From Clostridia bacterium (lineage in GTDB: Bacteria; Bacillota; Clostridia; Oscillospirales; Butyricicoccaceae), in the NCBI GenBank assembly GCA_021205365.1, contig JAJPXP010000032.1, positions 1 through 64,000 on the forward strand: a stretch of 64,000 nt of DNA. The letters run 5' to 3'. The position numbers and the translations under genes were made by a program. Below the pieces are notes generated by a model. That model was given only the letters and a program-made list of their open reading frames with translations, was not told where the DNA came from and ran no database searches. Shown here piece by piece: positions 5,379 to 48,165 of the stretch; within the stretch, counting starts at the first letter, position 1; the number at the start of each line of letters is the position of its first letter.

Positions 5379-7280
5379 TTATCTTTTCACTGTCATCAGG
5401 GCAGCATTTGCCTTGATTGGACCGAGATTGCCGATTACATCAGCATAATCGTCAGAATTGGTTACAATGACCGGTGTAATCGTCTTATAGCCTTCCTTTT
5501 GGATTGCCGGAATGTCAAATTCCATCAGCAGATCGCCTGCGTTGACATGCTGGCCTTCCTTGACATGCGGTGTGTAGTGCTTACCATCCAGCTGCACTGT
5601 GTCAATGCCGATGTGAATCAGCAGCTCTAGACCGTTGTCACACTCCAGGCCAACGGCATGACCCATCAGCGTGGATATGATACCGGCACACGGAGCAACA
5701 GCCTTGCCTTCAGCCGGGTCAACTGCAAAGCCCTTGCCCAGGACCTCTGCAGCAAACGTCTCATCACCGGTTTCTGCCAGTGTGGTTGCCTTGCCAGTCA
5801 TTGGGGATGCAACTACCAGATCTCCGGCAGCAGATGCTGCCTGCACCGTAACCTCCTGTGCCGGCTCAGCCTGCGGTGCCGGTACGCCATTTGCAGTTTC
5901 CGGCTTCGGATCCTTGTAGCCGAAGATCCAGGTCAGAACAAAGGCTACACCAGCTGCAATCACGAACATCAGGATGTACTTGATCGGATCATTCAGGCAC
6001 AGCAGCAGGCCAAAGATGCCGGTTACGCCAGTGCCGCTTGCACCCAGATCGGTAATGGAAGAGAACATTGCGCCAACACCACCGCCGATGCAGGCACAAA
6101 TAAACGGACGGAAGAAACGAACGTTAACACCGAAAATAGCCGGTTCGGTGATGCCCATGAAAGCAGACAGAGAGGACGGCAGAGCCATGGATTTCAGCTT
6201 CTTATCACGGGTCTTCAGTGCAACAGCCAGAGCAGCTGCCCCCTGTGCAATGTTTGCAGAGGATGCCAGCGGGAGCCAGTGTGTCACACCGTACTGCTGA
6301 ATCTGGCCAAGGTCGATGATGGAATACATGTGGTGGATACCAGTAATAACGGTCGGCGCATACAGAGCACCCATAACCAGAGAACCAATACCAAACGGAA
6401 TGGAAATTAATGCCTGAACACCGCCAATAATGTTGGTTTCAACCACATTGAAAACTGGTCCAATGATGGTCATCGTCAGGAATCCGGTCAGGAATACGGA
6501 TACCAGTGGGGTAATGAACAGGTCAAACATTGCCGGAACCTTTTTGTGCAGGAACTTTTCAATCTGTGACATCAGGAATACTGCAATGATAACAGAAATA
6601 ACATGTCCCTGATAGCCGACCATCGGAACCTGCCATAGGCCGAATACATCAAGGTACGTATCGACACCTCCGGTCATCGTCCATGCATTCTGCAGGTTCG
6701 GATGAACCATAATCATACCAATAATTGCGCCTAGGAACGGATTGCCGCCGAATACCTTTGCGCCAGAGAAGCCGATCAATACTGGCAGGAATACATATGC
6801 GGTGTTGGAGAACATGCTTGCCATAACAAACAGTGCACTCTCTGTAGAAATGTTGATATACCCGTTATTAATCATGAAGCTCAGGGAATCCATGATACCC
6901 ATCAGGAAACCGGAAGCAACAATTGCCGGAATGATTGGTACAAAGATATCACCCAGTGTCTTAACAAAACGCTGCAGCGGATTGCCCTTCTTTGCAGCTG
7001 CTGCCTTGACATCCTCCTTAGATGCTGCAGCAACGCCAGCCATGGCAATGAATTCATCATATACCTTATTTACTGTACCAGTTCCAAAAATAATCTGCAG
7101 CTGGCCGGACGCCTCAAATACACCCTTGACACCTTCTACATCTTCCAGTGCTGTTTTATTGCACTTGTTGTTGTCCGCAATGACCAGGCGCAAACGCGTT
7201 GCACAGTGGGCTGCGGATACCAGATTTTCTTTGCCGCCAATCTGTTCGAGAACACCTGCAGCGGATTTTCTGTAATCCAT
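5379..7280 (-). CDS. scrA: Sucrose-specific PTS transporter EIIBCA
   Basis: A 633-residue membrane permease that imports and phosphorylates sucrose with phosphate from HPr. The order is EIIB (residues 1-85; phospho-Cys26 in AAHCATRLR), EIIC with about ten membrane segments (110-450), and a fused Crr-type EIIA (about 480-633; active His in LLIHIGIDTV). An Ala/Pro/Glu-rich linker joins EIIC and EIIA. AAAGGAG lies nine bases before the ATG. It is the first gene of the operon, behind its own promoter and operator. Having its own EIIA makes the system independent of a separate EIIA-Glc. Confidence 0.93.
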   Translation of the reverse strand: MDYRKSAAGVLEQIGGKENLVSAAHCATRLRLVIADNNKCNKTALEDVEGVKGVFEASGQLQIIFGTGTVNKVYDEFIAMAGVAAASKEDVKAAAAKKGNPLQRFVKTLGDIFVPIIPAIVASGFLMGIMDSLSFMINNGYINISTESALFVMASMFSNTAYVFLPVLIGFSGAKVFGGNPFLGAIIGMIMVHPNLQNAWTMTGGVDTYLDVFGLWQVPMVGYQGHVISVIIAVFLMSQIEKFLHKKVPAMFDLFITPLVSVFLTGFLTMTIIGPVFNVVETNIIGGVQALISIPFGIGSLVMGALYAPTVITGIHHMYSIIDLGQIQQYGVTHWLPLASSANIAQGAAALAVALKTRDKKLKSMALPSSLSAFMGITEPAIFGVNVRFFRPFICACIGGGVGAMFSSITDLGASGTGVTGIFGLLLCLNDPIKYILMFVIAAGVAFVLTWIFGYKDPKPETANGVPAPQAEPAQEVTVQAASAAGDLVVASPMTGKATTLAETGDETFAAEVLGKGFAVDPAEGKAVAPCAGIISTLMGHAVGLECDNGLELLIHIGIDTVQLDGKHYTPHVKEGQHVNAGDLLMEFDIPAIQKEGYKTITPVIVTNSDDYADVIGNLGPIKANAALMTVKR

Positions 7281-7332
7281 ATAAAACTCCTTTCCCTTTT
7301 ACACATTTGTTTCATATGTTTCTGAGCATTTT

Positions 7333-7365
7333 GTGAAACCGATTTCTTTTATGTTTCATATTATA
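7333..7365 (-). promoter_or_regulatory. scrA promoter and ScrR operator
   Basis: On the minus strand TATAAT (7360-7365) is followed directly by a LacI-type operator, GTGAAACCGATTTC on the plus strand at 7333-7346. A repressor bound there would cover the transcription start. The -35 region is weak, which often goes with activator- or repressor-controlled sugar operons. Confidence 0.65.
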
Positions 7366-7389
7366 CCATGGATTTCTCAAAAATAAAGA

Positions 7390-7432
7390 GCAATATGTTA
7401 CAAATATCACCGCATTTTTTGTAACATATTGC
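7390..7432 (-). terminator. 15-bp perfect inverted repeat between scrR and scrA
   Basis: GCAATATGTTACAAA and its exact complement flank a 13-base loop. Read on the minus strand the stem ends in CTCTTTATTTTT, so it may terminate scrR transcription just upstream of the scrA promoter. The stem is AT-rich, so a protein-binding role remains possible. Confidence 0.5.
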
Positions 7433-7475
7433 CCAAATATATCGTATCTGCGTTCCCTATACTATAACTTCTTAT

Positions 7476-7491
7476 ATGAAACTAATTTCAT
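7476..7491. promoter_or_regulatory. ScrR-type operator
   Basis: A perfect palindrome, ATGAAACTAATTTCAT, sits 15 bases past the scrR stop. It matches the operators at 7333 and 8523 (GAAAC..ATTTC), so one repressor could bridge the three sites. Confidence 0.6.
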
Positions 7492-7505
7492 CGATAATTC
7501 ATTTG

Positions 7506-8486
7506 TTATGTGGATTCCTGCCGCACAATTTCAAATCCAAGTTTCACCTGCATTTTCATATCAATACCGCTATCCAGAATCTGCAGCAGCATCTTTGCTG
7601 CCTCTGCACCACCTGTTTCATAAAATAGGTGTGCAGTTGTCAGCCGTGGCGAAACAATTTCCGTCATGCGGGAATGGCCTATACCGACGATACTGACGTC
7701 CTCCGGAATACGCTTTCCCAATCCTTTAATAAACTGCATAGCGCCGATTGCAAGCGTATCTGTTGCACAAAATACCGCATTCGTTTCCGGTGCACGTGTA
7801 AACAGCTGCTGCGCTGCCGCATTGCCATCCTCCAACATAAAACCTGTCGTCAGCATATGCTCCTCCGGAATATCCAATCCGGCTTCCTGCATGGCCTCCA
7901 AAAATCCGGCACGACGTGCAAACCCTACTGCCCGATCTTTCTGTGTAACGCCGATATATCCCACATTTTTGTGCTCTGTTTCCAGTAACAGACGCGCAAT
8001 TTCCTTTGCTGCCCCAAAATCATTGTTATAAACACAGGACAGATATTCCGATTTCTGACTGAGAACAACCATAGGAACAGGATAATTCTGCAGCAAAGAC
8101 CGGTGCTGCGGTGTTTGCATGGTTGCAAAAAAGATCACACCTTCTACCTGCCCCTTTTGGAACAGCTCGAGATATTCAAATTCCTTTTCAATATTATTTT
8201 CCGTGTTGGCAAGCAGAATAGAAAATCCATTGTTATTTAATACAGAAGAAATGCCCGCTACCATGCAGCCGATGCTCTCGGAATTGATTTTCGGCAAAAT
8301 AACGCCTATCTGACGGCTCTTTCCAGTACGAAGAATCTGTGCTTGATGTGACGGCACGTATCCGGTTTCATCAATCACCTTCTGAATAAGCTTCTTTTTC
8401 TCCTCACTAACATATCCATGATTTAAATATCTGGAAACACAGGCTTTCGAAACGCCTGCAAGCTTTGCAATTTCTGAAATAGTCAT
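7506..8486 (-). CDS. scrR: LacI-family sucrose operon repressor
   Basis: A 326-residue LacI/GalR regulator. The N-terminal helix-turn-helix (TISEIAKLAGVSKACVSRYL) occupies residues 2-21 and is followed by the hinge helix and a periplasmic-binding-type effector domain from about residue 60. Its position immediately upstream of scrABK and the shared palindromes upstream of itself and of scrA indicate that it represses the operon and itself. The inducer is probably sucrose-6-phosphate or fructose by family precedent, but this is not visible in the sequence. AAGGATAAGAT precedes the ATG. Confidence 0.9.
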   Translation of the reverse strand: MTISEIAKLAGVSKACVSRYLNHGYVSEEKKKLIQKVIDETGYVPSHQAQILRTGKSRQIGVILPKINSESIGCMVAGISSVLNNNGFSILLANTENNIEKEFEYLELFQKGQVEGVIFFATMQTPQHRSLLQNYPVPMVVLSQKSEYLSCVYNNDFGAAKEIARLLLETEHKNVGYIGVTQKDRAVGFARRAGFLEAMQEAGLDIPEEHMLTTGFMLEDGNAAAQQLFTRAPETNAVFCATDTLAIGAMQFIKGLGKRIPEDVSIVGIGHSRMTEIVSPRLTTAHLFYETGGAEAAKMLLQILDSGIDMKMQVKLGFEIVRQEST

Positions 8487-8725: not shown

Positions 8726-10120
8726 ATGGGAAAAGAGAAAAAACGAGGCAGTTTTTCCGGACAGCTGGGATTTATTATGGCTGCAGCTGGAAGCGCTGTC
8801 GGGCTTGGAAACATATGGAGATTTCCATATCTAGCCGCTAAGGATGGCGGCGGTGTATTCATTGTCTGTTATTTGATTTTGGCCTTAACCTTTGGCTTTG
8901 CCCTGCTGACAACAGAGATTGCAATCGGCAGAAAAACCAAACAAAGCCCTCTGACGGCTTATAAGAAAATTCATCCAAAGTGGGGCGGTATTGGTGTGCT
9001 TGCATGCCTCGTACCGACTATTATTCTGCCGTATTACTGCTCGATCGGCGGCTGGGTATTTAAATACCTTTCCGTTTATGTGACCGGACAGGGTGCTGCC
9101 GCTGCGCAGGATGGATATTTCACATCCTATATCACCAGCACGCCGAAACCAATGATCTGGATGCTGATATACTTTGCTGTCACTGCATTTGTTGTTATCT
9201 GTGGCGTTGAAAAGGGCATTGAAAAATACAGTAAAATTCTGATGCCGATTCTGGTTGTCCTTGTCATCGGTATTTCACTGTTCTCCCTTACCCTGAATCA
9301 CACCGATGCAGATGGCGTGACCAGAACCGGATTGCAGGGCCTGAAGGTTTATCTTATTCCCGATTTTACGGGAATGACACTGAAGCAGCTTATGATTGTC
9401 ATCATGGATGCTATGGGTCAGTTGTTCTTCTCCATCAGTGTAGCAATGGGTATCATGGTAACATATGGTTCCTATGCACGCAAAGAAACCAATCTGATGA
9501 CCTCTATCAACCAGATCGAAATTTTTGATACGGGCATTGCCCTGCTGGCTGGCCTGATGATTATTCCTGCTGTTTTTACGTTTGCAGGTATTGACGGTAT
9601 GTCTGCCGGCCCGGGTCTGATTTTTGTAGCCCTTCCCAAGGTGTTTTCCGCAATGGGCGGGATCGGCTCCATTGTTGGCCTGGTATTTTTCCTGATCGTT
9701 TCCTTTGCGGCAGTCACCTCTTCGGTTTCTGTCATGGAAGCTATCGTTTCCAGTATCATAGATGCTTTCCATCTGACCAGAAAAAAAGCTTCTGTCATTG
9801 TAGCAATTTATACGTTCATTGCTGGCATCATTGTATGCCTTGGCTATAATGCACTCTATTTCGAGTTTGCACTGCCAAACGGTACAATAGGGCAGATTTT
9901 GGATATCATGGACTACCTCAGCAATAATATCTTTATGCCGCTGGTTGCTTTCCTGACCTGTATCCTGATCGGCTGGGTAGTCAAGCCAAAGGTGATTATT
10001 GACGAAGTAACACAGGGAAAATATAAATTCCAGAGAAAAACACTATATACCATCATGATCAAATTTGTAGCTCCAATTCTGCTGCTGATCCTGTTGTTGC
10101 AGTCCATCGGTCTGTTCTAA
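8726..10120 (+). CDS. Sodium-dependent transporter, NSS/SNF family
   Basis: A 464-residue neurotransmitter:sodium-symporter family protein with about eleven membrane segments. The first helix carries the family signature AGSAVGLGNIWRFPYLAAKDGGG (shortened: GSAVGLGNIWRFPY), which forms the sodium and substrate site. Members import amino acids or related amines with sodium; the substrate cannot be read from sequence. The ORF track uses a GTG at 8714, but that overlaps the AGGAG ribosome site, so the ATG at 8726 is preferred. It is monocistronic, with its own promoter and terminator. Confidence 0.92.
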   Translation: MGKEKKRGSFSGQLGFIMAAAGSAVGLGNIWRFPYLAAKDGGGVFIVCYLILALTFGFALLTTEIAIGRKTKQSPLTAYKKIHPKWGGIGVLACLVPTIILPYYCSIGGWVFKYLSVYVTGQGAAAAQDGYFTSYITSTPKPMIWMLIYFAVTAFVVICGVEKGIEKYSKILMPILVVLVIGISLFSLTLNHTDADGVTRTGLQGLKVYLIPDFTGMTLKQLMIVIMDAMGQLFFSISVAMGIMVTYGSYARKETNLMTSINQIEIFDTGIALLAGLMIIPAVFTFAGIDGMSAGPGLIFVALPKVFSAMGGIGSIVGLVFFLIVSFAAVTSSVSVMEAIVSSIIDAFHLTRKKASVIVAIYTFIAGIIVCLGYNALYFEFALPNGTIGQILDIMDYLSNNIFMPLVAFLTCILIGWVVKPKVIIDEVTQGKYKFQRKTLYTIMIKFVAPILLLILLLQSIGLF

Positions 10121-35617: not shown

Positions 35618-35645
35618 ACAAAAGAACACCCATCAAGTCGATGGG
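35618..35645. repeat. attL core, 28-bp direct repeat
   Basis: Identical over 28 bases to 48138-48165. It contains AACACCCATCAAGTCGATGG. Here the right arm of the terminator palindrome is lost after GATGGG, whereas the right-hand copy keeps the whole hairpin, so the junction lies in this core. Confidence 0.85.
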
Positions 35646-35745: not shown

Positions 35746-35775
35746 TTCACCCTAATTTCACCCCAAATTCACCCC
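35746..35775. repeat. Left arm-type integrase sites
   Basis: Three direct copies of TTCACCCyAAA-like words at exact 11-bp steps (35746, 35757, 35768), about 100 bp inside attL. The same words recur near attR. Confidence 0.6.
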
Positions 35776-35984: not shown

Positions 35985-36941
35985 TTAATATCCTTCATAT
36001 ATATCGAACGTTCCTTTAAATCCGTACCTGCGCAGTTTGATTTTTTTGATTCGCAACGCCTCGGAATTTTCAGCCTCAAATGCAGTAAAATACCATGTAG
36101 TATCTGAAGATATGCGACTGATTATTTTCTTAATGTAAACACTATCTACTTTTCCATAACTAAATCCATAAGAATAGACCTTATCAACATTACAATCGAG
36201 TTTTTTGAAAAAGTCACTGTATTTCTTTAACGGTGAAGCCGTATCTTTCTTAAACGACATCACCATATCATCTAAAAAAGAGGATCTAATGCCCGGGCCC
36301 GTTGAGAGATCATTGTTAAACTGATTGTACGTTACATCGTCTTTTTCGTGTCCAAAAATAAGCTTTTGCCCAACACGATTATGAATATGAATAACTTTTT
36401 TGATTCCGTATAGTTTCTGTAATGTTTTGGTGTAATTAAACGTAAGGAACTGTGTATCAGGTTGATAGAAAAGAGCCTTTAATGTGTCTTTACCTTTGAA
36501 TTCCCCATCGTCTATTTGTGCTTGAATACTTTTTATCCATAACCTAAAAAAATCTTGCCATATTTTAGCACAATTTATAAAACCGCTTGTAAGCACATCC
36601 ATATAAAGCAGATAGTGCATCATCAATTCTTGATCTTCTTTATCTGTTTCATTTTCTTTGTGATTCGCCATAGGTAGCTTGCTGTTAAAATTTATATACG
36701 CTAATGCTTCTTCAAAATTACACCAGTTTTTCCCGGCAATCTTATCCATTGTGTTCAATAAGATTTCGGCTGCAAATTCATTCTGATCAATATTTTCAAA
36801 GTCTTCTAAATATACAACTTCATCACGAAACTCAAGTGCTTCCGGATACAAGTCAATCACAAATGATCTGAAATCGCTATATTTTGTAAAAATTCCATGT
36901 GCGATATCGAAACCATTTCCTATTATAAATAAAGAACCCAT
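35985..36941 (-). CDS. AbiH-family abortive infection protein
   Basis: A 318-residue protein matching the bacteriophage abortive-infection AbiH family. It starts with the nucleotide-binding-like FIIGNGFDIAHGIFTKYSDF and has the conserved TQFLTFNYTKTLQKLYG near 165, VIHIHNRVG near 186 and IFGHEKDD near 197. Family members block phage growth at a late step by an unknown mechanism. It is AT-rich, alone on its transcript and sits at the left end of the element, the usual cargo position. I found no strong ribosome site (weak AAGGGGG about five bases before the ATG). Confidence 0.82.
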   Translation of the reverse strand: MGSLFIIGNGFDIAHGIFTKYSDFRSFVIDLYPEALEFRDEVVYLEDFENIDQNEFAAEILLNTMDKIAGKNWCNFEEALAYINFNSKLPMANHKENETDKEDQELMMHYLLYMDVLTSGFINCAKIWQDFFRLWIKSIQAQIDDGEFKGKDTLKALFYQPDTQFLTFNYTKTLQKLYGIKKVIHIHNRVGQKLIFGHEKDDVTYNQFNNDLSTGPGIRSSFLDDMVMSFKKDTASPLKKYSDFFKKLDCNVDKVYSYGFSYGKVDSVYIKKIISRISSDTTWYFTAFEAENSEALRIKKIKLRRYGFKGTFDIYEGY

Positions 36942-37726
36942 TATTTCCCCCTTAAAAAGTCTACATTATTCAAGCGTAAAGGCTCCAACCTCGTTGTCAT
37001 CAATAACAAAATGCAAAAAAACACGGCCTTGCTCATAGCAACAAAGTATGCAGTAAACGGTAAAATAGAGTCCACGCAGTCTAACCGTACAACTGCATCA
37101 TCAGCGCAAAGTCCTGTAATTAATTGTAGTACACAAACAACAGAAATACAAGATCATGCCTTTGCAGGTAGAGGTACAGTGTGTCGAGATGGGACCCGAA
37201 CTCCTAGCCTGATGGATCCATCCCTGCGGCCAATTGCGCTAATCTCAGATATTCAGTAGAGTTCTGAGGGGATCCCAATTCCACAGCAAGCATGTCTGGA
37301 ATGCTGGAATGTGGTACCAATCCTTGTCCTCTGGCAGCACAGGTGATCTTTTACTAATTTGTACATGAAATTATTACACTCTGTTAAAATAGGTGCGCTT
37401 AGAATAGTTTCAGGCAACAAGAAAAAGCAGATGCAGAATGTGCCTGCTTTTGTTATTTTGCTCTCAGATGCCCTGTATTGCGTTTTACCTGCTCAACATG
37501 AAATTACACCATGAGCAGAAGAAACGCGCAGGAAGGGGCGCTGACGCTTGAAAGAACGCATGTTCTGGTTGGATGTATAGCAGGCGGGAGTATTTACCGA
37601 TTTTACAGGCCCTAAAAAGGGGTTGTCGTCCGGATTTCGGACAAAAAGAAAAGAGCAGGCCGCTGCGGGTCTGCTCTGTGTGGTTTTGCGCCGACAATTT
37701 TCGTTGTCAATTGCCGAAATGTAATA
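36942..37726. other. Non-coding stretch in the element
   Basis: No credible ORF in about 780 bases; the 82-aa plus-strand ORF at 37011 has no ribosome site and low complexity. It contains a T-terminated hairpin AAAAGCAG/CTGCTTTT (37423-37451) and a stretch at 37170-37240 that on the minus strand resembles a degenerate tRNA. Confidence 0.5.
37641..37677 (-). terminator. Terminator of the XRE/DUF2971 pair
   Basis: AGAGCAG and CTGCTCT; on the minus strand the stem is followed by CTTTTCTTTTTG. Confidence 0.65.
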
Positions 37727-38488
37727 TTAAAAAGTGATCTTTTCTGCAAAAATCTCATATGTGCATGGCTTGATACGCATGTGGTAAAGATCAATAGTTT
37801 TTTTCTTGCATATTTCGACCATCTTTTGACAGTCCTCATCACTGGTCTTGACTCCTAAATAAATTGCTCGTATTCTGGGAGCCTTTTGCAAACCGAACTT
37901 GCGTGAAGAAAAAAGTACTCGCCACTCATTTTCATAAGACCAATCAGCCGATTTTGTTATTATAACCGGAAGATAACAATTCCGATTATCGGAGTTTTCC
38001 ACTGTATAAACTGAATTACGATAACAAACAGGATAAACGAAATCGTAAAATTCAGACTCAGAAAAATCATATTCAATACAGAACCCTTTGTGACCGTCTG
38101 CATAATGGCTCCACATCAGTTTTGATTTATTATCCTCCATAAAACAACAAAGAGTAAATCGTTGTAACGTTTGTTGGCGAAAATTCTCATTCTTGCGGTT
38201 ACATATCTCGGCTATCTCGTCTGCAAAGCCCGGGATATTTACAATTTTCACTGCAGAGTCAACTATATTAGATTTTAACTTAAAAGAAAATTCAAAAGGA
38301 TCATTGAAGTCTTTTGGATAGCTCATCCACATTTTTTCATTTTCAATCGCTTTTAAGTTATTCTCATTAAAACTTCTATATCTGTACAATGAGTAACCAA
38401 GATCAGCAAGCGACTGATTCTTAATTCGCTTTGCTTTGTTAATATCCAATCCCCAAATCGCTCGGCTGTATTCATCTCTCCAGATCAT
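37727..38488 (-). CDS. DUF2971 protein
   Basis: A 253-residue soluble protein of the DUF2971 type. Recognisable pieces are SLYRYRSFNENNLKAIEN near residue 33, MWMSYPKDFNDPFEF near 54, MWSHYADGHKGFCIEY near 123 and WSYENEWRV near 188. The function is unknown; members are often found in phage and island cargo. GGAGGAATAAA before the ATG at 38488 sets the start. It overlaps the stop of a small XRE regulator upstream, so the two form one regulated unit. Confidence 0.82.
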   Translation of the reverse strand: MIWRDEYSRAIWGLDINKAKRIKNQSLADLGYSLYRYRSFNENNLKAIENEKMWMSYPKDFNDPFEFSFKLKSNIVDSAVKIVNIPGFADEIAEICNRKNENFRQQTLQRFTLCCFMEDNKSKLMWSHYADGHKGFCIEYDFSESEFYDFVYPVCYRNSVYTVENSDNRNCYLPVIITKSADWSYENEWRVLFSSRKFGLQKAPRIRAIYLGVKTSDEDCQKMVEICKKKTIDLYHMRIKPCTYEIFAEKITF

Positions 38489-38489
38489 T

Positions 38490-38705
38490 TTATTCCTCCG
38501 GTTCTTCAACGTATTCCATGATATCCCCCGGCTGACAGTCAAGAGCTTTACACAGCCTTGCAATAGAACGATGATCGAGACCACCAGTCCCGTTTTTGAT
38601 TGCTGTCAGTGTGGCTTGTCCCAATATTTTTTCTTTCCTAATGCGATATGATGTGTATCCCTTTTCTTCCAGCAGTTTCAACAACTTATCATATTTAATC
38701 GGCAT
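38490..38705 (-). CDS. Small XRE-family regulator
   Basis: A 71-residue protein consisting of one Cro/C1-type helix-turn-helix (YRIRKEKILGQATLTAIKNG, then SIARLCKALDCQPGDIMEY). It is the short form typical of self-regulated cargo or toxin-antitoxin-like operons. It is cotranscribed with DUF2971. Inverted repeats in the upstream region are likely its operators. Confidence 0.88.
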   Translation of the reverse strand: MPIKYDKLLKLLEEKGYTSYRIRKEKILGQATLTAIKNGTGGLDHRSIARLCKALDCQPGDIMEYVEEPEE

Positions 38706-41411: not shown

Positions 41412-41492
41412 TGTGACGCGCCTTTCCAAAACCTTACCTACCTAAAATCTCACTATGTCGTTTTCAAGAGCAGAGTTCGCGGACAAAATCGA

Positions 41493-41522
41493 ACTGAGCA
41501 CTGAGCACTGAGCACTGAGCAC
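41493..41522. repeat. 7-bp tandem repeat
   Basis: Four perfect copies of ACTGAGC. Confidence 0.9.
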
Positions 41523-41635
41523 AAGATTCTCTGTTTCTTGTACCATGTCTGCGCTCACTTTGTGCTCATGCTCTTTACGGAGGCAAGGGCAACTTCTTTC
41601 GCCTGCTGGCTTGCTTTTGCTTCAGTTTTGCTCTC

Positions 41636-41765
41636 TTTTTAGGGACTCCGAAATCTCCGGATACTTCTTTTTTAGGGCCTCTAAAATCTCTAAACACTCG
41701 CCTTTTTAAGGGCTGAAAAATCTGAAAATACCGGTCTGTTTTAGGGTGTTAGAAATGTTACCACC
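41636..41765. repeat. Iteron-like array with doubled words
   Basis: Four degenerate units start with AGGG at 41641, 41674, 41709 and 41743 (steps 33-35). Each has a short word repeated on both sides of an AT-rich core: CTCCG-AAAT-CTCCG, CTCTA-AAAT-CTCTA, CTGA-AAAAT-CTGA, GTTA-GAAAT-GTTA. Placed in the non-coding gap downstream of the replication genes, it is a candidate origin. Confidence 0.6.
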
Positions 41766-41787
41766 ATCCCGCTGCACACGGCAATTT

Positions 41788-41884
41788 CTCTCTGTTCGCT
41801 CTCGGTTCAAGTCCCGATTTCTCGGCGTTCGCTCGGAGTTCAACCTCTAGTTTTCTCTAGCTTCGCTCGGGCTTCGTTCGAGCC
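41788..41884. repeat. Second repeat array with the same period
   Basis: Three units TTTCTC-N3/4-TTCGCTC at 33-34 base steps (TTCGCT at 41795, 41828, 41862). Doubled words recur here too: CTCGG-CGTTCG-CTCGG, CTCTAG-TTTT-CTCTAG and GCTTCG-CTCGG-GCTTCG. Confidence 0.6.
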
Positions 41885-41993: not shown

Positions 41994-42542
41994 TTACCAA
42001 GTATAAAGGCTATCCCTCAAATCCTTTAGAGTAATGTATTCGTTCAGCAATAGCGGGTGTCGGCCGGCCAACACATTGCGTATGGTTCTGGTGTCATATC
42101 TGGAGCGAAACATAATGCACTGAAACCGCATGTTTTCCAATGCCTGCAAGATTCTCAATTTGTCACGAAATCCCTGACGGCAAATTCTTTCATCCAAAAG
42201 AAAGTTCATGTAATCAAACGGATAATTAAACGCTATGCCATGTTTTGTGGCAAAGCGTTTCATCCGGTATTGAATCTCTGTGTATCCGCCCTTGGTACTG
42301 TTCTGGATCCCTCTGTATAGGTGGACATTCCCACACGTCCGGCAAAGCAGCCTATGACCGCAGAGGTACAGCCGTTGAAACCTTCGGCCGCACACAGGGC
42401 ATACAAGAAAGTACCGTGTGCCAAAACCAGTTTGTTGTGGTGAAAGCGTCAGCGCATGTGCCGTATCCGTCTTGTACGCCACCTGTTCGCAGCACTCCGG
42501 CAGATACTTTTTGACATCAGATGCATTAATAGGTAGAATCAT
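41994..42542 (-). CDS. Zinc-ribbon element protein
   Basis: A 182-residue protein with a central zinc ribbon (CPVCGRRFQRLYLCGHRLLCRTCG, two CxxC pairs, near residues 48-71) followed by a basic helical region. It is the last gene of the leftward early operon and resembles nucleic-acid-binding accessory proteins of phages and plasmids. GAGGAG lies seven bases before the ATG. Function not known. Confidence 0.65.
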   Translation of the reverse strand: MILPINASDVKKYLPECCEQVAYKTDTAHALTLSPQQTGFGTRYFLVCPVCGRRFQRLYLCGHRLLCRTCGNVHLYRGIQNSTKGGYTEIQYRMKRFATKHGIAFNYPFDYMNFLLDERICRQGFRDKLRILQALENMRFQCIMFRSRYDTRTIRNVLAGRHPLLLNEYITLKDLRDSLYTW

Positions 42543-42571: not shown

Positions 42572-43405
42572 CTAAATACTAAGCTGTGCAGCCTCCCACA
42601 AGACCAGCTCCCGCCGGTACTCGGCCACATCCGGCTGTATGCTGTTGTCAGAACACCATGCCAGATACAGGGATATACCGTCATCTATGCGGCGCTCAAT
42701 CTCTTCATGGCCATCATTCCAGAGTATCCGGTTTTCTGCGTCCCACAGCTGCCTACGCCTGTCAATCTCGCTGCCCTCACGGATGTAGTACAGCTCAAAG
42801 GCTTGTATCGCTGGATCCCGTTTCAGCTTGCGGAATATCTTGTGCTGAAGCTGGTTACTCCTGGAGCTGCTGATGCCCTCGGCGCGTCCCCATGCTGTTA
42901 CGGTTTTGCCCTGCACATACACAGCGTTGATAAGTTCCTGCTCCCGATCAGTCAGGCGGGCGACTGCCCCACGTACGACGCGCTGAAGGTCTGTGATTTC
43001 TGCGCCGCCGGTCACGTCTATGCTTTCGTCTGCGATCATGTCAGCAATCGTAATATCCTCACCGCCCTGTACAGGTGTATCAACGGACACCGTAGGGATA
43101 ACGCGCATGACACCGTCACGGATATTAAGGGCCCGCATACAGGCTGATTTGATATGAAATCCCAGGTATGTACTAAACATGCCTTTGCCGGTCTGGTAGC
43201 CCATCACAGCATTGTGGAAGCCAATCCAGCACTCTTGCATCAGGTCATCTTCATCAATGCCAGCACGTCCACATAGGGATATGCACCGCTGAGAGAGCTT
43301 GTAGATTAGGCGGGACACATTCGCATACAGGACATTTTCAGCGTCCATGTCGCCCTCCTGTGCACGTACTGCAAGTTCCTCATTTGCCATTACTTCATAG
43401 TCCAT
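42572..43405 (-). CDS. Element-encoded sigma-70 family factor
   Basis: A 277-residue sigma-like protein. Region 2 is seen in ANVSRLIYKLSQRC and IDEDDLMQECWIGFHNAVMG (about 25-72), a short region 3-like segment follows, and region 4 in LTDREQELINAVYVQGKTV, then the HTH, lies near 150-190. A charged C-terminal extension of about 80 residues is unusual. It lies in the replication operon and may redirect host polymerase to element genes. AAGGATGG six bases before the ATG supports the start. Confidence 0.82.
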   Translation of the reverse strand: MDYEVMANEELAVRAQEGDMDAENVLYANVSRLIYKLSQRCISLCGRAGIDEDDLMQECWIGFHNAVMGYQTGKGMFSTYLGFHIKSACMRALNIRDGVMRVIPTVSVDTPVQGGEDITIADMIADESIDVTGGAEITDLQRVVRGAVARLTDREQELINAVYVQGKTVTAWGRAEGISSSRSNQLQHKIFRKLKRDPAIQAFELYYIREGSEIDRRRQLWDAENRILWNDGHEEIERRIDDGISLYLAWCSDNSIQPDVAEYRRELVLWEAAQLSI

Positions 43406-43675: not shown

Positions 43676-44488
43676 TTAGAATTTTGTCCGATAGTTTTTA
43701 TTCGGATCAGCGTCAACATGTATCCAACATCCGCCGTCATTGCACCGTTTATAAATGCGTCCGCCTGTTGCTTCATCAAACTTTGATACAACATTCTGGA
43801 TATGTATTTCAGCAGAAAAAAGCGTAATTTTACTCGGGTCGTTGTACCGTTCATTAACGATTTCAAAAGAGAAATCAAATTCATCATCTGTCGGCATACG
43901 TCCCGCCCGTTTTTTGAAAAAATCATCCCAGTATAACAGAGGTGCATTTACCAGTCGGTTATATATGGACTCATATACATCACCTTTAAATTTCGCCTGT
44001 GACAGCTTTCGCATGGTTTTGCCCCAGCTGGCATATTCTCCACGCTTCCCCTGCTTCATCAGTTCAAGAAAGATTCCGCTGCAGGTATGTGTTTTGCCAC
44101 ACCCGGACTGTCCGGACAGATACCACCATCCGGAAGAACCTTGCCGGATACGCTCGACATAATCAAAGGCTTTCTTTTTCATGGATACAACCCATGGTGC
44201 ATACTCTTCCAGCCTGTCAAGTGTTTGCTCTTTCAGCCCGGGATTACCGGATAGTTCCGCCCAGCGTTCAGCCCGTGGACCCTTGATGCAATCACACCAT
44301 ACAGGAACTCTTGTCAACGTGTCCAAATCATCTTTGAATATAAAACCCTTGCCGTGGCATATAGGGCAATCTGGCCGCCCTTGTGTACCATGTTGTTTAT
44401 TTGTGATATCAGTAATAATCCGCTGACTTTTAGCAAAGCCATCAAAGGTTATGCTCTGGGTCTGAGAATATCCTTGCGTAATAGTCAC
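43676..44488 (-). CDS. DnaC/IstB-like helicase loader
   Basis: A 270-residue AAA+ ATPase. An N-terminal zinc motif (CPICHGKG...WCDC, near 42-67) precedes the P-loop GQSGCGKTH near residue 126 and Walker B APLLYWDDFFK near 185. The architecture is that of phage and conjugative-element helicase loaders that place host DnaB at the element's origin. The start is a GTG inside the initiator gene (47-base overlap), which is a weak point. Confidence 0.85.
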   Translation of the reverse strand: MTITQGYSQTQSITFDGFAKSQRIITDITNKQHGTQGRPDCPICHGKGFIFKDDLDTLTRVPVWCDCIKGPRAERWAELSGNPGLKEQTLDRLEEYAPWVVSMKKKAFDYVERIRQGSSGWWYLSGQSGCGKTHTCSGIFLELMKQGKRGEYASWGKTMRKLSQAKFKGDVYESIYNRLVNAPLLYWDDFFKKRAGRMPTDDEFDFSFEIVNERYNDPSKITLFSAEIHIQNVVSKFDEATGGRIYKRCNDGGCWIHVDADPNKNYRTKF

Positions 44489-45218
44489 TCTTTCCGTTGT
44501 CCTCTACCTCTTTTCTCTGATTACGTCCGCTGTTTTGATCTCTGTCCAGCCAGCCTGTAATGAACCGGACAATACCACGCGCAGTCTTACGCTTTGTCGG
44601 ATTTCCTTCCAGCCAACCAGCCATAGAGCGTAAAGCCTGCTCAATATCAACACCAGGGTAAAGCTGTTTCCAACCGTCTACCTGTTTCTGTGTAACCGGA
44701 TACATTTGACCAGTATTCAAAATTAATTCAATGAAAACAGGCTCCGTTGCTTCCGGTTCCGGCTCTGACTTGTCAGAGGTCGGAGCATTATTATATAACC
44801 TATCCTTACCTAACTCTAACCTATCCTTACCTAACCTATCCTGTGTATCCGGTCTGGATATATCCTGTATACATTCCGTATCCAGAGTGTATACATTGTC
44901 CGTAAGAGAAAGCATTTTCATTTCTTCTTTACATTTTGTAGGTCTATATCGGTCTTTCTGTATGTAATTACTCTGTTTCCAATGGCGTATAACTATAACG
45001 CCAGATTGAAACGGAATCAAAAAGCCTTTTGAAATCAGCATCTTCAAATCATCCTGTGCGCTGCCAAAATACCGGACCAGCCCTTTTGGATTATTCAAAA
45101 AACCATCGTCATCAGCTTCCATTCCCAAATGAAAATACAGTGCGCGTGTTGTCGCCGGCATATCCAGAAATGTATCACTGTTTACAACTGACCTTGCAAA
45201 CATTCTTCTTTCAGCCAA
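44442..45218 (-). CDS. Replication initiator / replisome organiser
   Basis: A 258-residue protein. Its N-terminal AERRMFARSVVNSDTFLDMP, then TRALYFHLGMEADDDGF is the hallmark of Lin1244/Lin1753-like phage replisome organisers with a winged helix that binds the origin. A variable middle has a tandem DRLGKDRLELGKDRLY repeat, and the C-terminal domain (about 165-230) probably contacts the loader. The start is a TTG at 45218, six bases after GAGGTG; the track's earlier start lies in the upstream HTH gene. Confidence 0.82.
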   Translation of the reverse strand: MAERRMFARSVVNSDTFLDMPATTRALYFHLGMEADDDGFLNNPKGLVRYFGSAQDDLKMLISKGFLIPFQSGVIVIRHWKQSNYIQKDRYRPTKCKEEMKMLSLTDNVYTLDTECIQDISRPDTQDRLGKDRLELGKDRLYNNAPTSDKSEPEPEATEPVFIELILNTGQMYPVTQKQVDGWKQLYPGVDIEQALRSMAGWLEGNPTKRKTARGIVRFITGWLDRDQNSGRNQRKEVEDNGKSDYYARIFSDPEHNL

Positions 45219-45222
45219 ATAT

Positions 45223-45561
45223 TCACACCTCAATTCGTCTGATTCCGCTGTTACCGGTAATATCTGGAGGGATATTATCTTGCCCATCTACACACATCAG
45301 CCAGCGTTCTACATTCGGCCAGTACAGCAGGTACTTTCTACCTACCTTTCGGCACGGAATAGCTCCGGAACGGATTGCCCGCCGCAGAGTATATTCTGAA
45401 ACGCCCATACCAGAGAGTTTGGCACGGTTCACAGTTTCAGCTACAGTCAGCATCTGCCTCTCCTCCGCAGGTCTGCCGGTCATCCGGTGCCGCTGTAGCA
45501 TATCCGGTTTCCTGTCAGTACCTTTTGGTAGTCTCATAAGACTTGTATTACTCATATCCAT
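45223..45561 (-). CDS. HTH protein, excisionase-like
   Basis: A 112-residue protein with a C-terminal MerR/excisionase-type winged helix (LTVAETVNRAKLSGMGVSEY, then AIRSGAIPCRKVGRKYLLYWPNVERWL). The N-terminal 35 residues are basic and unstructured. AGGAGGTGGAA sets the ATG at 45561. It could act as recombination directionality factor or as a regulator of the early operon. Confidence 0.75.
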   Translation of the reverse strand: MDMSNTSLMRLPKGTDRKPDMLQRHRMTGRPAEERQMLTVAETVNRAKLSGMGVSEYTLRRAIRSGAIPCRKVGRKYLLYWPNVERWLMCVDGQDNIPPDITGNSGIRRIEV

Positions 45562-45609
45562 TTCCACCTCCTAAATAGTGTCCTATCTCACGATTTTTCA
45601 TCATGACAA

Positions 45610-46041: not shown

Positions 46042-46069
46042 TAACACTTTAAGCATTCTTACAAAAAAA

Positions 46070-46100
46070 TGTTCCATTTGGTTCTATTCTGTGATATACT
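46070..46100 (+). promoter_or_regulatory. Repressor promoter with third operator
   Basis: TGTTCCATTTGGTTCT (46070-46085) resembles the other operators and lies where the -35 of a promoter with TATACT (46095-46100) would be; the -35 itself is poor. Confidence 0.5.
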
Positions 46101-46119
46101 CCGTTTAAGGAGTGATTTT

Positions 46120-46527
46120 ATGGAAGTTGGAAAAAAAATTCATGATATCCGAAAAAGCAAAAAAATGTCTCAAGCCGAATTAGCCGAAAAAGCCGGAATT
46201 TCGCTTATGAGTATTCGCAGATATGAAAAGGGAGATCGTGCTCCAAATACGGAACAACTTGCAAAAATAGCTGCTGCCCTTGGTGTATTTGTGGTTGATA
46301 TTGTAGATAACGCCTATTTTGACAATCTTCCAATGAAAGAAATTGATTTTATAAATCCTAATGCCAATCCTGAAACCTTACGTGCACGAAAGCTTCGCAA
46401 CCGTATGAACGCCGCTTTTGATCGGATGAATGAAACAGGGCAACAGGCTGCAGCTGAACGCGTGGAAGAACTCAGCCAGATACCGGCATACCAGAAAGCA
46501 AATCACGGAACTACTGAAAGCGAATAA
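46120..46527 (+). CDS. XRE-family repressor of the element
   Basis: A 135-residue protein with an N-terminal Cro/C1 helix-turn-helix (IHDIRKSKKMSQAELAEKAG, residues 7-26, ending with RRYEKGDRAP) and a C-terminal helical region that may mediate oligomerisation. It has no LexA-type or ImmA-type protease partner nearby, so induction is not by the classical self-cleavage route. AAGGAG precedes the ATG at 46120. It is divergent to the Cro-like gene and followed by the integrase gene. Confidence 0.9.
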   Translation: MEVGKKIHDIRKSKKMSQAELAEKAGISLMSIRRYEKGDRAPNTEQLAKIAAALGVFVVDIVDNAYFDNLPMKEIDFINPNANPETLRARKLRNRMNAAFDRMNETGQQAAAERVEELSQIPAYQKANHGTTESE

Positions 46528-46566: not shown

Positions 46567-47961
46567 ATGGCAACAATAGAAAAGCGTCGGAACAAAGCTG
46601 GTAAAGTCATCTCGTATAGAATCACTGTTGCAGGCGGGATTGATACCACTGGTAAACAAATCAGACACCGCATGACCTGGAAGCCGGATGCAAAGATGAC
46701 CGCACGGCAGATTGACAAGGCTCTGGCTCGCGCTGCAGCTGACTTCGAGCGTCAGATTGAACAAGGGTACCAGTTGGATAACCGGCAGACTTTTGCTGAA
46801 TATACAGACTATGTCATTGCCCTGAAAGAACGCACCGGATTAAAGAAGCGTACCATTGACCGGTACCGTGAGCTTAAGGTTCGTGTTGATCTGGCAATAG
46901 GACACATGAAACTGATAGACATTCGTCCGCAACACCTTAACAGCTTCTATGAAAATCTCAGTGAACAGGGGATCCGGATGAACACCAACAGTGCAAAGGC
47001 TCGTATTGATCTAAATGCACTGCTGAAAGAAAATCATTTGTCTTATGCTGCATGTGCAAAGTTGTCTGCTGTTTCAGCTCCTACGGTTTCCGCAGCCGCA
47101 AATGGTAAATCAATCCGTTTATCTTCAGCTGACAAAATCGCTGCTACCCTTGGTATTTCTACCACTTCCCTGTTTACTCTGGAACAAGACAGCAAGCCCC
47201 TTGAACCAAGAACAATCCTTGAATATCATTGTTTTATCTCTGGTGTTCTGTCTCAGGCAGAAAAAGAACTGTTAATACCGTATAATCCCGCCAGCAAGGC
47301 AACCCCTCCCAAGGTTGAAAAGAAAGAGGTTGTATACTACCAACCGGATCAGCTGGCAAGGATCCTCAATGCTCTGGAAGATGCACCTTTGAAATGGAAG
47401 ACCTTTACCTATCTGCTGATAGACACCGGCTGCCGTCGTGGCGAAATTGCCGGCCTGAAATGGAAAAGCATTGATCTGCATTCCGGTATTATCACGATTG
47501 AACGTGCGCTGCTGTATAGCACAGCCCGCGGCACCTATGAGGACACTACAAAGAACCGTAAGAGCCGCACGCTGCATCTTGCTCCGGAGACAATCACACT
47601 GTTAAAGCAGCACAAGGCTTCACAGCTTGAAATGCAGCTTGCCAATGGTGATAGATGGAATGATACTGGTTTTGTGTTCACGCAGGACAACGGCTTGCCT
47701 ATCTGCCCTACTAGCGCAACACATTGGCTGGATGACTTTGCAAAGGCTCATGATCTGCCACATATCCACCCACATGCATTCCGGCACACTGCTGCATCTT
47801 TGATGATCGCCCAGGGCGTTGACCTGGTTACCACAGCAAATGAACTCGGTCATTCCAGTGCAATGGTCACAGCGAATGTATACGCCCATCAAATTGAAGA
47901 AGCCAAAGCCAAGGCAAGTAATGCACGTGCAAGTGTGTTTTCCCGCCAGCTGCAGGCATAA
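46567..47961 (+). CDS. Tyrosine integrase with inserted HTH domain
   Basis: A 464-residue site-specific recombinase. The arm-binding N terminus (about 1-65) and core-binding domain (75-140) are followed by an insertion of about 65 residues (142-208) that reads as an XRE-like helix-turn-helix (LSYAACAKLSAVSAPTVSAA, then LSSADKIAATLGIS). The core domain resumes and leads to the catalytic domain with Arg in GCRRGEI near 290, HAFRHTA near 399 and the Tyr in VYAHQ near 430. GGAAAGGAAGG precedes the ATG. It adjoins attR, as expected. Confidence 0.92.
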   Translation: MATIEKRRNKAGKVISYRITVAGGIDTTGKQIRHRMTWKPDAKMTARQIDKALARAAADFERQIEQGYQLDNRQTFAEYTDYVIALKERTGLKKRTIDRYRELKVRVDLAIGHMKLIDIRPQHLNSFYENLSEQGIRMNTNSAKARIDLNALLKENHLSYAACAKLSAVSAPTVSAAANGKSIRLSSADKIAATLGISTTSLFTLEQDSKPLEPRTILEYHCFISGVLSQAEKELLIPYNPASKATPPKVEKKEVVYYQPDQLARILNALEDAPLKWKTFTYLLIDTGCRRGEIAGLKWKSIDLHSGIITIERALLYSTARGTYEDTTKNRKSRTLHLAPETITLLKQHKASQLEMQLANGDRWNDTGFVFTQDNGLPICPTSATHWLDDFAKAHDLPHIHPHAFRHTAASLMIAQGVDLVTTANELGHSSAMVTANVYAHQIEEAKAKASNARASVFSRQLQA

Positions 47962-48017: not shown

Positions 48018-48036
48018 TTCACCCCAAATTCACCCC
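48018..48036. repeat. Right arm-type integrase sites
   Basis: TTCACCCCAAATTCACCCC holds two TTCACCCC words at an 11-bp step; the identical 19 bases occur at 35757-35775. Confidence 0.6.
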
Positions 48037-48137: not shown

Positions 48138-48165
48138 ACAAAAGAACACCCATCAAGTCGATGGG
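48138..48165. repeat. attR core, 28-bp direct repeat
   Basis: Identical to 35618-35645. It overlaps a perfect terminator hairpin, AGAACACCCATC/GATGGGTGTTCT (48143-48171), that serves the zinc-ribbon gene on the minus strand. Confidence 0.85.

Follow-up and report, generated by a model that had tools for sequence, protein, structure and literature searches.

Doubled-word units in a clostridial phage satellite as a probable array of packaging sites for several helper phages

A gap between genes in the 64,000-nucleotide stretch of Clostridia bacterium DNA analyzed here (the window) holds a series of short units, each containing one small word that is read twice, and the question raised by this locus is what purpose such a series could serve. 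The preliminary description of this DNA recorded four AGGG units with doubled words at a 33–34 base period, followed by three TTTCTC..TTCGCTC units with the same step, and all of these parts are indeed present. It likened them to protein-recognition sites, their words differing between units yet paired within each, and this resemblance is upheld by the evidence presented below.

The gap lies inside an integrated element of ~12.5 kb that is bounded by 28-bp exact direct repeats, the left and right attachment-site repeats at 35618–35645 and 48138–48165, with two exact copies of a 19-bp arm-type repeat (TTCACCCCAAATTCACCCC) just inside, near the left (35757–35775) and right (48018–48036) ends. 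The forward strand encodes a CI-like repressor (46069–46527; HTH_3, 7e-16) and a tyrosine integrase (46567–47961; PF00589, 4e-27; phrog_1, 3e-68), the latter with an unusual arrangement in which a Cro/CI-type HTH (HTH_26, residues 149–208) is inserted in the N-terminal half. On the reverse strand are genes for an excisionase-like protein (45223–45567; phrog_1840, 9e-6), a DnaD-like helicase loader (44442–45287; phrog_5708, 7e-59), a DnaC-like helicase loader (43676–44488; phrog_50, 2e-26), a sigma-factor-like protein (42572–43405; Sigma70_r2/r4; phrog_351, 3e-31) and a 182-aa protein with cysteine pairs (41994–42542), which adjoins the array in the window, in a sister element of the same genome (C62) and in a Clostridia MAG (L004). 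The 182-aa protein has no Pfam or PHROG match, and was dropped as a marker for relatives because it has few. An AbiH abortive-infection protein (35985–36941, reverse strand; PF14253, 8e-47) is probably carried as cargo at the left end of the element, as is a DUF2971 protein (37727–38584). No structural or terminase genes, terS and terL included, were found among the 15 main open reading frames scanned, and an Rfam search gave no match of note. By its anatomy, with an integrase and attachment-site repeats around an element in the 7–20 kb size range, the element is a phage satellite; the classical PICI gene order with a pri-rep module is not found and there are DnaD- and DnaC-like loaders instead of a primase, so that it is not a classical PICI.

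Two forms of unit make up the array, and all seven units have the same orientation. The type-1 form, TTTTTARGGN-word-AAAT-word, occupies 41634–41766 and repeats a five-letter word at period 9; the type-2 form, TTTCTC....TTCGCTC....TTC, occupies 41784–41876 and contains a period-11 direct repeat (CTCGGCGTTCG|CTCGGAGTTCA). Unit starts fall at 41636, 41669, 41703 and 41738 for the AGGG units (steps of 33, 34 and 35) and at 41785, 41818 and 41852 for the TTTCTC..TTCGCTC units (steps of 33 and 34). The doubling of words within units stands for type 1, where 19 of 20 letters match in register at period 9 across units 1–4 (alternative pairings of these words give 15 letters at best and 11 on average), and is less perfect for type 2, where 3, 3 and 2 of the 4 variable letters match in the window and 4, 4 and 2 in C62. 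Doubled 5-mers are too common to be decisive by themselves, since clusters of three, and once four, arose by chance in 40 shuffles. What places the array above chance is its shared framework, together with its relatives: a PSSM with the words masked scores seven of eight sites, a stray unit included, at 27–32 and unit 4 at 9.6, the chance level at a score of 10 being ~0.75 matches (type 1) or 2.75 (type 2) per 64 kb. Some units may be decayed, since the words are imperfect in unit 4 and in two of the three type-2 units.

The stray, unit 8 (37590–37620; CTGTA/CGGTA), is a type-1 site scoring 32.0 and lies in the same element on the opposite strand; it is identical at 28 of 31 positions to the site in a terS gene (L036). 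Comparison with C62 shows an inversion of the cargo segment at ~37.6–41.6 kb, a breakpoint of which falls within the array or beside it, and this inversion has left unit 8 stranded. The perfect 7-bp tandem repeat that had been noted beside the array is present as four copies of ACTGAGC at 41493–41520, close to the inversion breakpoint, and is absent at the equivalent place in C62. A DNA search with 41440–41640, which includes this repeat, gave no convincing phage match; the repeat was for this reason excluded and is probably not part of the site array.

The type-1 units, all on the forward strand, each match a different terS gene. Unit 1 (41634–41664; CTCCG/CTCCG) is identical at 28 of 31 positions to a site in the terS of TVCOM_ph1 (L006), and shares 96% identity over 28 bp with the terS of Chenonceau (L005); unit 2 (41667–41697; CTCTA/CTCTA) matches the L073 terS site at 30 of 31 positions; unit 3 (41701–41731; CTGAA/CTGAA) matches at 27 of 31 the terS site of a resident prophage of this genome (L003), which carries the word CTGAA; and unit 4 (41736–41766; GTTAG/GTTAC), the weakest in framework score, matches the L034 terS site at 25 of 31, 22 bp of it exactly. 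Units 2 and 4 are also the two type-1 units present in C62 (L002), which has all three type-2 units as well. Searches with blastn placed type-1 units inside the terS of two phages, and 80 terS loci from IMG/VR have the site at the same codons, with a single site in 74 of these 80 full-phage loci. All four array words occur among the terS genes: CTCCG in L005 and L028, CTCTA in L073, CTGAA in L003 and L021, and GTTAG in L034. Local matches between type-1 units and terS span 22–29 bp at 93–100% identity, this recognition stretch (~22–30 bp) being the sole part that the two share, which leaves no common sequence for a separate cutting site, should one be needed. Across arrays, 27 of 47 first words were found in the terS word set against a null of 19.5±2.5, an excess that is only modest because the terS reference set is small.

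The type-1 terS genes belong to one HTH-type family, phrog_309. A PDB sequence search with both TerS families gave no match, and a fold search with a TerS model returned weak matches only, the best being to the Bacillus phage protein phBC6A51 (2ao9, E 0.16). The homologous intergenic gap in L004 holds ~29 terS codons around a site, which suggests that sites may have been captured from terS genes. Elsewhere on L004 (7825–9540), a tape-measure protein gene sits downstream of the satellite-like genes, either as the tail gene of a neighboring prophage or as cargo of the element.

The type-2 units, likewise on the forward strand, lead to a second gene family, which in Streptococcus phages sits just ahead of terL. 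Unit 5 (41784–41809; TCTG/TCGG) matches at 23 of 26 positions a site in the Javan141 gene upstream of terL (L113), and its counterpart in C62 and Javan267 has the word TCTG/TCTG; unit 6 (41817–41842; GGCG/GGAG) has a 27-nt exact match in many Streptococcus satellites and agrees at 24 of 26 positions with a prophage gene of the same genus (L201); unit 7 (41851–41876; TAGC/GGGC) agrees at 24 of 26 with the genes L146 and L165, and a similar unit is found in Javan267. Type-2 sites occupy codons ~12–21 of the gene that immediately precedes terL in EJ-1, MismyG, Javan420 and Javan141, and one is also found in the terL-upstream gene of a genome of the same genus (L201/L232). This gene is taken as a putative terS because of its position, PHROG 2412 carrying no assigned function. 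Type-2 units occur too in non-coding DNA of ~60 Streptococcus satellites, whose records are unannotated at these positions; a matching type-2 prophage was not found in the bacterium's own genome. That the units match different terS or terL-upstream genes, as well as Streptococcus satellite DNA, points to a tandem array of candidate TerS-recognition (pac/cos-type) sites with seven specificities.

Whether the words change in pairs among relatives was the check proposed in the preliminary description, and its outcome is positive. In tests that ignore relatedness, and whose numbers therefore overstate independence, the two words agree at 312 of 365 positions in 73 distinct type-1 terS sites, against 186±7.6 when second words were re-dealt (maximum 220 in 10,000) and 226±7 when synonymous codons were re-drawn with the protein kept (maximum 248). 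As the pairing exceeds the synonymous-codon null, the doubling is maintained in the DNA itself. Type-2 coding sites behave likewise (130 of 164 matches; 72±6.8 re-dealt; synonymous null 65±5.6), and so do the non-coding arrays, at 177 of 235 positions for type 1 (shuffles 111±6.2) and 71 of 100 for type 2 (shuffles 42.5±5.6) in a set that includes the window and C62 units and from which L215 and L231 were not removed. Every data set shows the effect, and it is large.

The identity of the type-1 word follows the protein. Word distance is related to distance in the HTH (residues 19–46) with C-terminal distance removed (partial Mantel r=0.30, p=0.0005), and the reverse test, of word against C-terminal distance with the HTH removed, gave p=0.27. 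Once the residues that the site encodes are set aside, the best predictors of the word are by far residues 40 (z −7.9) and 39 (z −7.7), at the start of a predicted recognition helix (39–48; AlphaFold pLDDT ~95 there). In counts that include near-identical loci, all 27 cases with R or K at residue 39 have GT- words, A, P, T or E is nearly always paired with CT-, and V is paired with CT- or AT-; at residue 40, S accompanies C at base 4 in 33 of 34 cases, K accompanies AC/TA, Q or E accompanies AG, and A accompanies GG/GC. Taking the commonest value for each residue gave the first two bases in six of six further terS genes of family relatives (L233–L237 and L239) and the last two in five of six; in leave-one-out prediction of the 10 word letters, residues 39–40 recover 6.9, the C-terminus 4.8 and random pairs 4.9. 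The word is thus shown by computation to be coupled to TerS HTH residues 39–40, and it is apparently these paired five-letter words that the packaging protein reads. In word–protein coupling for type 2, the columns with the strongest signal are coded by the site or adjoin it, and hence are not independent.

Arrays in non-coding DNA, with two to seven units of differing words, were found in Streptococcus satellites, in two further genomes (G035 and G001) and on contigs from IMG/VR. Javan193 has four type-2 units (steps of 34, 34 and 33), Javan267 has three and Javan54 is mixed; on the IMG/VR contigs, which include some that are not proven satellites, seven units are present in L226, five in L223, and four each in L221, L222 and L230. 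Satellites carry up to seven sites, and many Streptococcus satellites just one or two. Of these contigs, L222 looks plasmid-like, with an integrase and a primase-helicase, and L223 may run into a prophage. Mixed type-1/type-2 arrays were identified by PSSM in the window, C62, L198, L090 and L210; an exact-pattern scan of IMG/VR for such mixtures gave no match. L230 also encodes a TerS of another family (7111–7560; phrog_51) on the contig with its four type-1 sites, where own and borrowed packaging specificities may coexist. Pattern matches in L218, L220, L224, L227 and L231 were set aside as not being arrays of this kind, and L215 is no multi-word array but simply one word repeated at period 11: at 9050–9141 it has about eight head-to-tail 11-bp CTCGTTGTTCA/G units, like an expanded single-word type-2 site. 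The earlier suggestion that the sites lie on one face of the helix is not borne out, given that 33–34 bp corresponds to ~3.2 helical turns and that neighboring units in other elements are 28–68 bp apart.

We asked which function best accommodates these observations, and put a probability of about 0.82 on the array being a packaging-site array of a phage satellite that serves several helpers. Each ~30-bp unit would imitate the site, placed within the terS gene of one helper, where that helper's TerS recognizes its own DNA. The doubled word would be a half-site that sets specificity and is read twice with the same polarity (at a spacing of 9 bp in type 1 and 11 bp in type 2), most likely through a pair of DNA-binding heads belonging to one TerS oligomer. 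Helpers with HTH-type TerS (phrog_309), in four specificities, would be addressed by four units, and helpers with the second type (phrog_2412) by the other three; once a matching helper becomes active, its TerS–TerL complex would start packaging on the replicated satellite DNA, and the satellite could probably ride in several unrelated phages. It is from sequence comparison that we infer TerS binding, the start of packaging, the number of working helpers and the benefit of a wide helper choice.

The main rival, which we consider unlikely, is that the array acts as a decoy, titrating helper TerS and hindering helper packaging, with no start of packaging on the satellite. A sponge would be well served by many tight sites in tandem, interference with helper packaging is known in satellites (for example, SaPI Ppi acts on TerS; PMC5052747), and the TerS-site sequence evidence fits a decoy equally well; however, one unit per specificity is few for titration, many Streptococcus satellites manage with one or two units, and a decoy would leave the element, in which no terS or terL was found, with no other evident packaging route. 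Decoy and packaging roles could coexist in the same array.

The replication origin with initiator-binding iterons put forward in the preliminary description is very improbable. It could draw on the DnaD- and DnaC-like loaders of the element and on the intergenic position and regular step of the array, but iterons are tandem copies of one initiator-binding sequence, whereas the words here vary between units and the units match different terS genes. Moreover, the same sites occur inside terS genes of full phages and their word tracks the TerS helix, and arrays are found also in elements with unrelated replication genes (primase/D5 type; L216, L223). Just as improbable is an operator array, regulatory or for a sigma factor, that controls the element's genes: a sigma-like gene is nearby, yet such a role leaves unexplained both the match of each unit within a different terS and the sharing of units with unrelated Streptococcus satellites. 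Least credible of all is a functionless record of replication slippage or copy-edit events, the second early suggestion; doubled words do resemble local duplications, but these recur at the same codons in terS genes of distant phages, each word pair is the pair of a particular terS gene, and the reading is contradicted by pairing that exceeds the synonymous-codon null and follows the TerS recognition helix. Transposon target duplications, CRISPR-like spacers and tRNA remnants were rejected because the terS match explains the units fully.

Packaging sites borrowed from helpers are known from other satellites. The PICIs SaPIbov4, SaPIbov5 and EcCICFT073 resemble the window element in being satellites without a terminase that imitate helper cos or pac sites; two cos sites work in EcCICFT073, and SaPIbov4 carries a putative pair (PMC6092414). 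These PICIs have one or two sites for one helper type, whereas the window element has seven, and one stray, of seven predicted specificities, with sites for two TerS families packed in tandem. Streptococcus satellites of the Javan set share the same type-1 and type-2 non-coding units, up to four at a 33–34 bp step, and StCI-301 has two putative cos sites of another sequence (PMC13376191); the Javan satellites and StCI islands differ from the window element in gene content and host. SaPIs that encode their own TerS have a TerS–pac pair that sets packaging specificity (PMC12597102), unlike the window element, which has no terS and would imitate the sites of its helpers. The pac region of SPP1/SF6, which goes with a different TerS family, has direct repeats and extends across the start of terS (PMC4737164); the HTH of the related SF6 had only slight sequence preference when it bound DNA (PMC4737164), whereas the type-1 word described here tracks residues of the HTH helix. 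Helper pac or cos sites on satellites are thus known, and the multi-specificity array and the residue–word rule are apparently new: we found no report of either in a literature search that did not extend to most subscription journals and preprints.

A wider generalization, which we hold only tentatively and think more doubtful than likely, is that Firmicutes satellites keep heritable key-rings of helper sites, growing by ~30-bp captures from helper terS genes at a preferred 33–34 bp step, which would form a record of past helpers and whose word could be read from two residues of the recognition helix in TerS. A packaging role for such arrays would account for a broad helper choice in satellites that lack a terminase, through the stacking of their helpers' address tags. 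The rule linking TerS residues 39–40 to a five-letter word is testable, bears on how small terminases recognize viral DNA, and could predict helper–satellite pairs from sequence alone, while the motif itself can be used to locate satellites and terS genes in DNA that lacks annotation.
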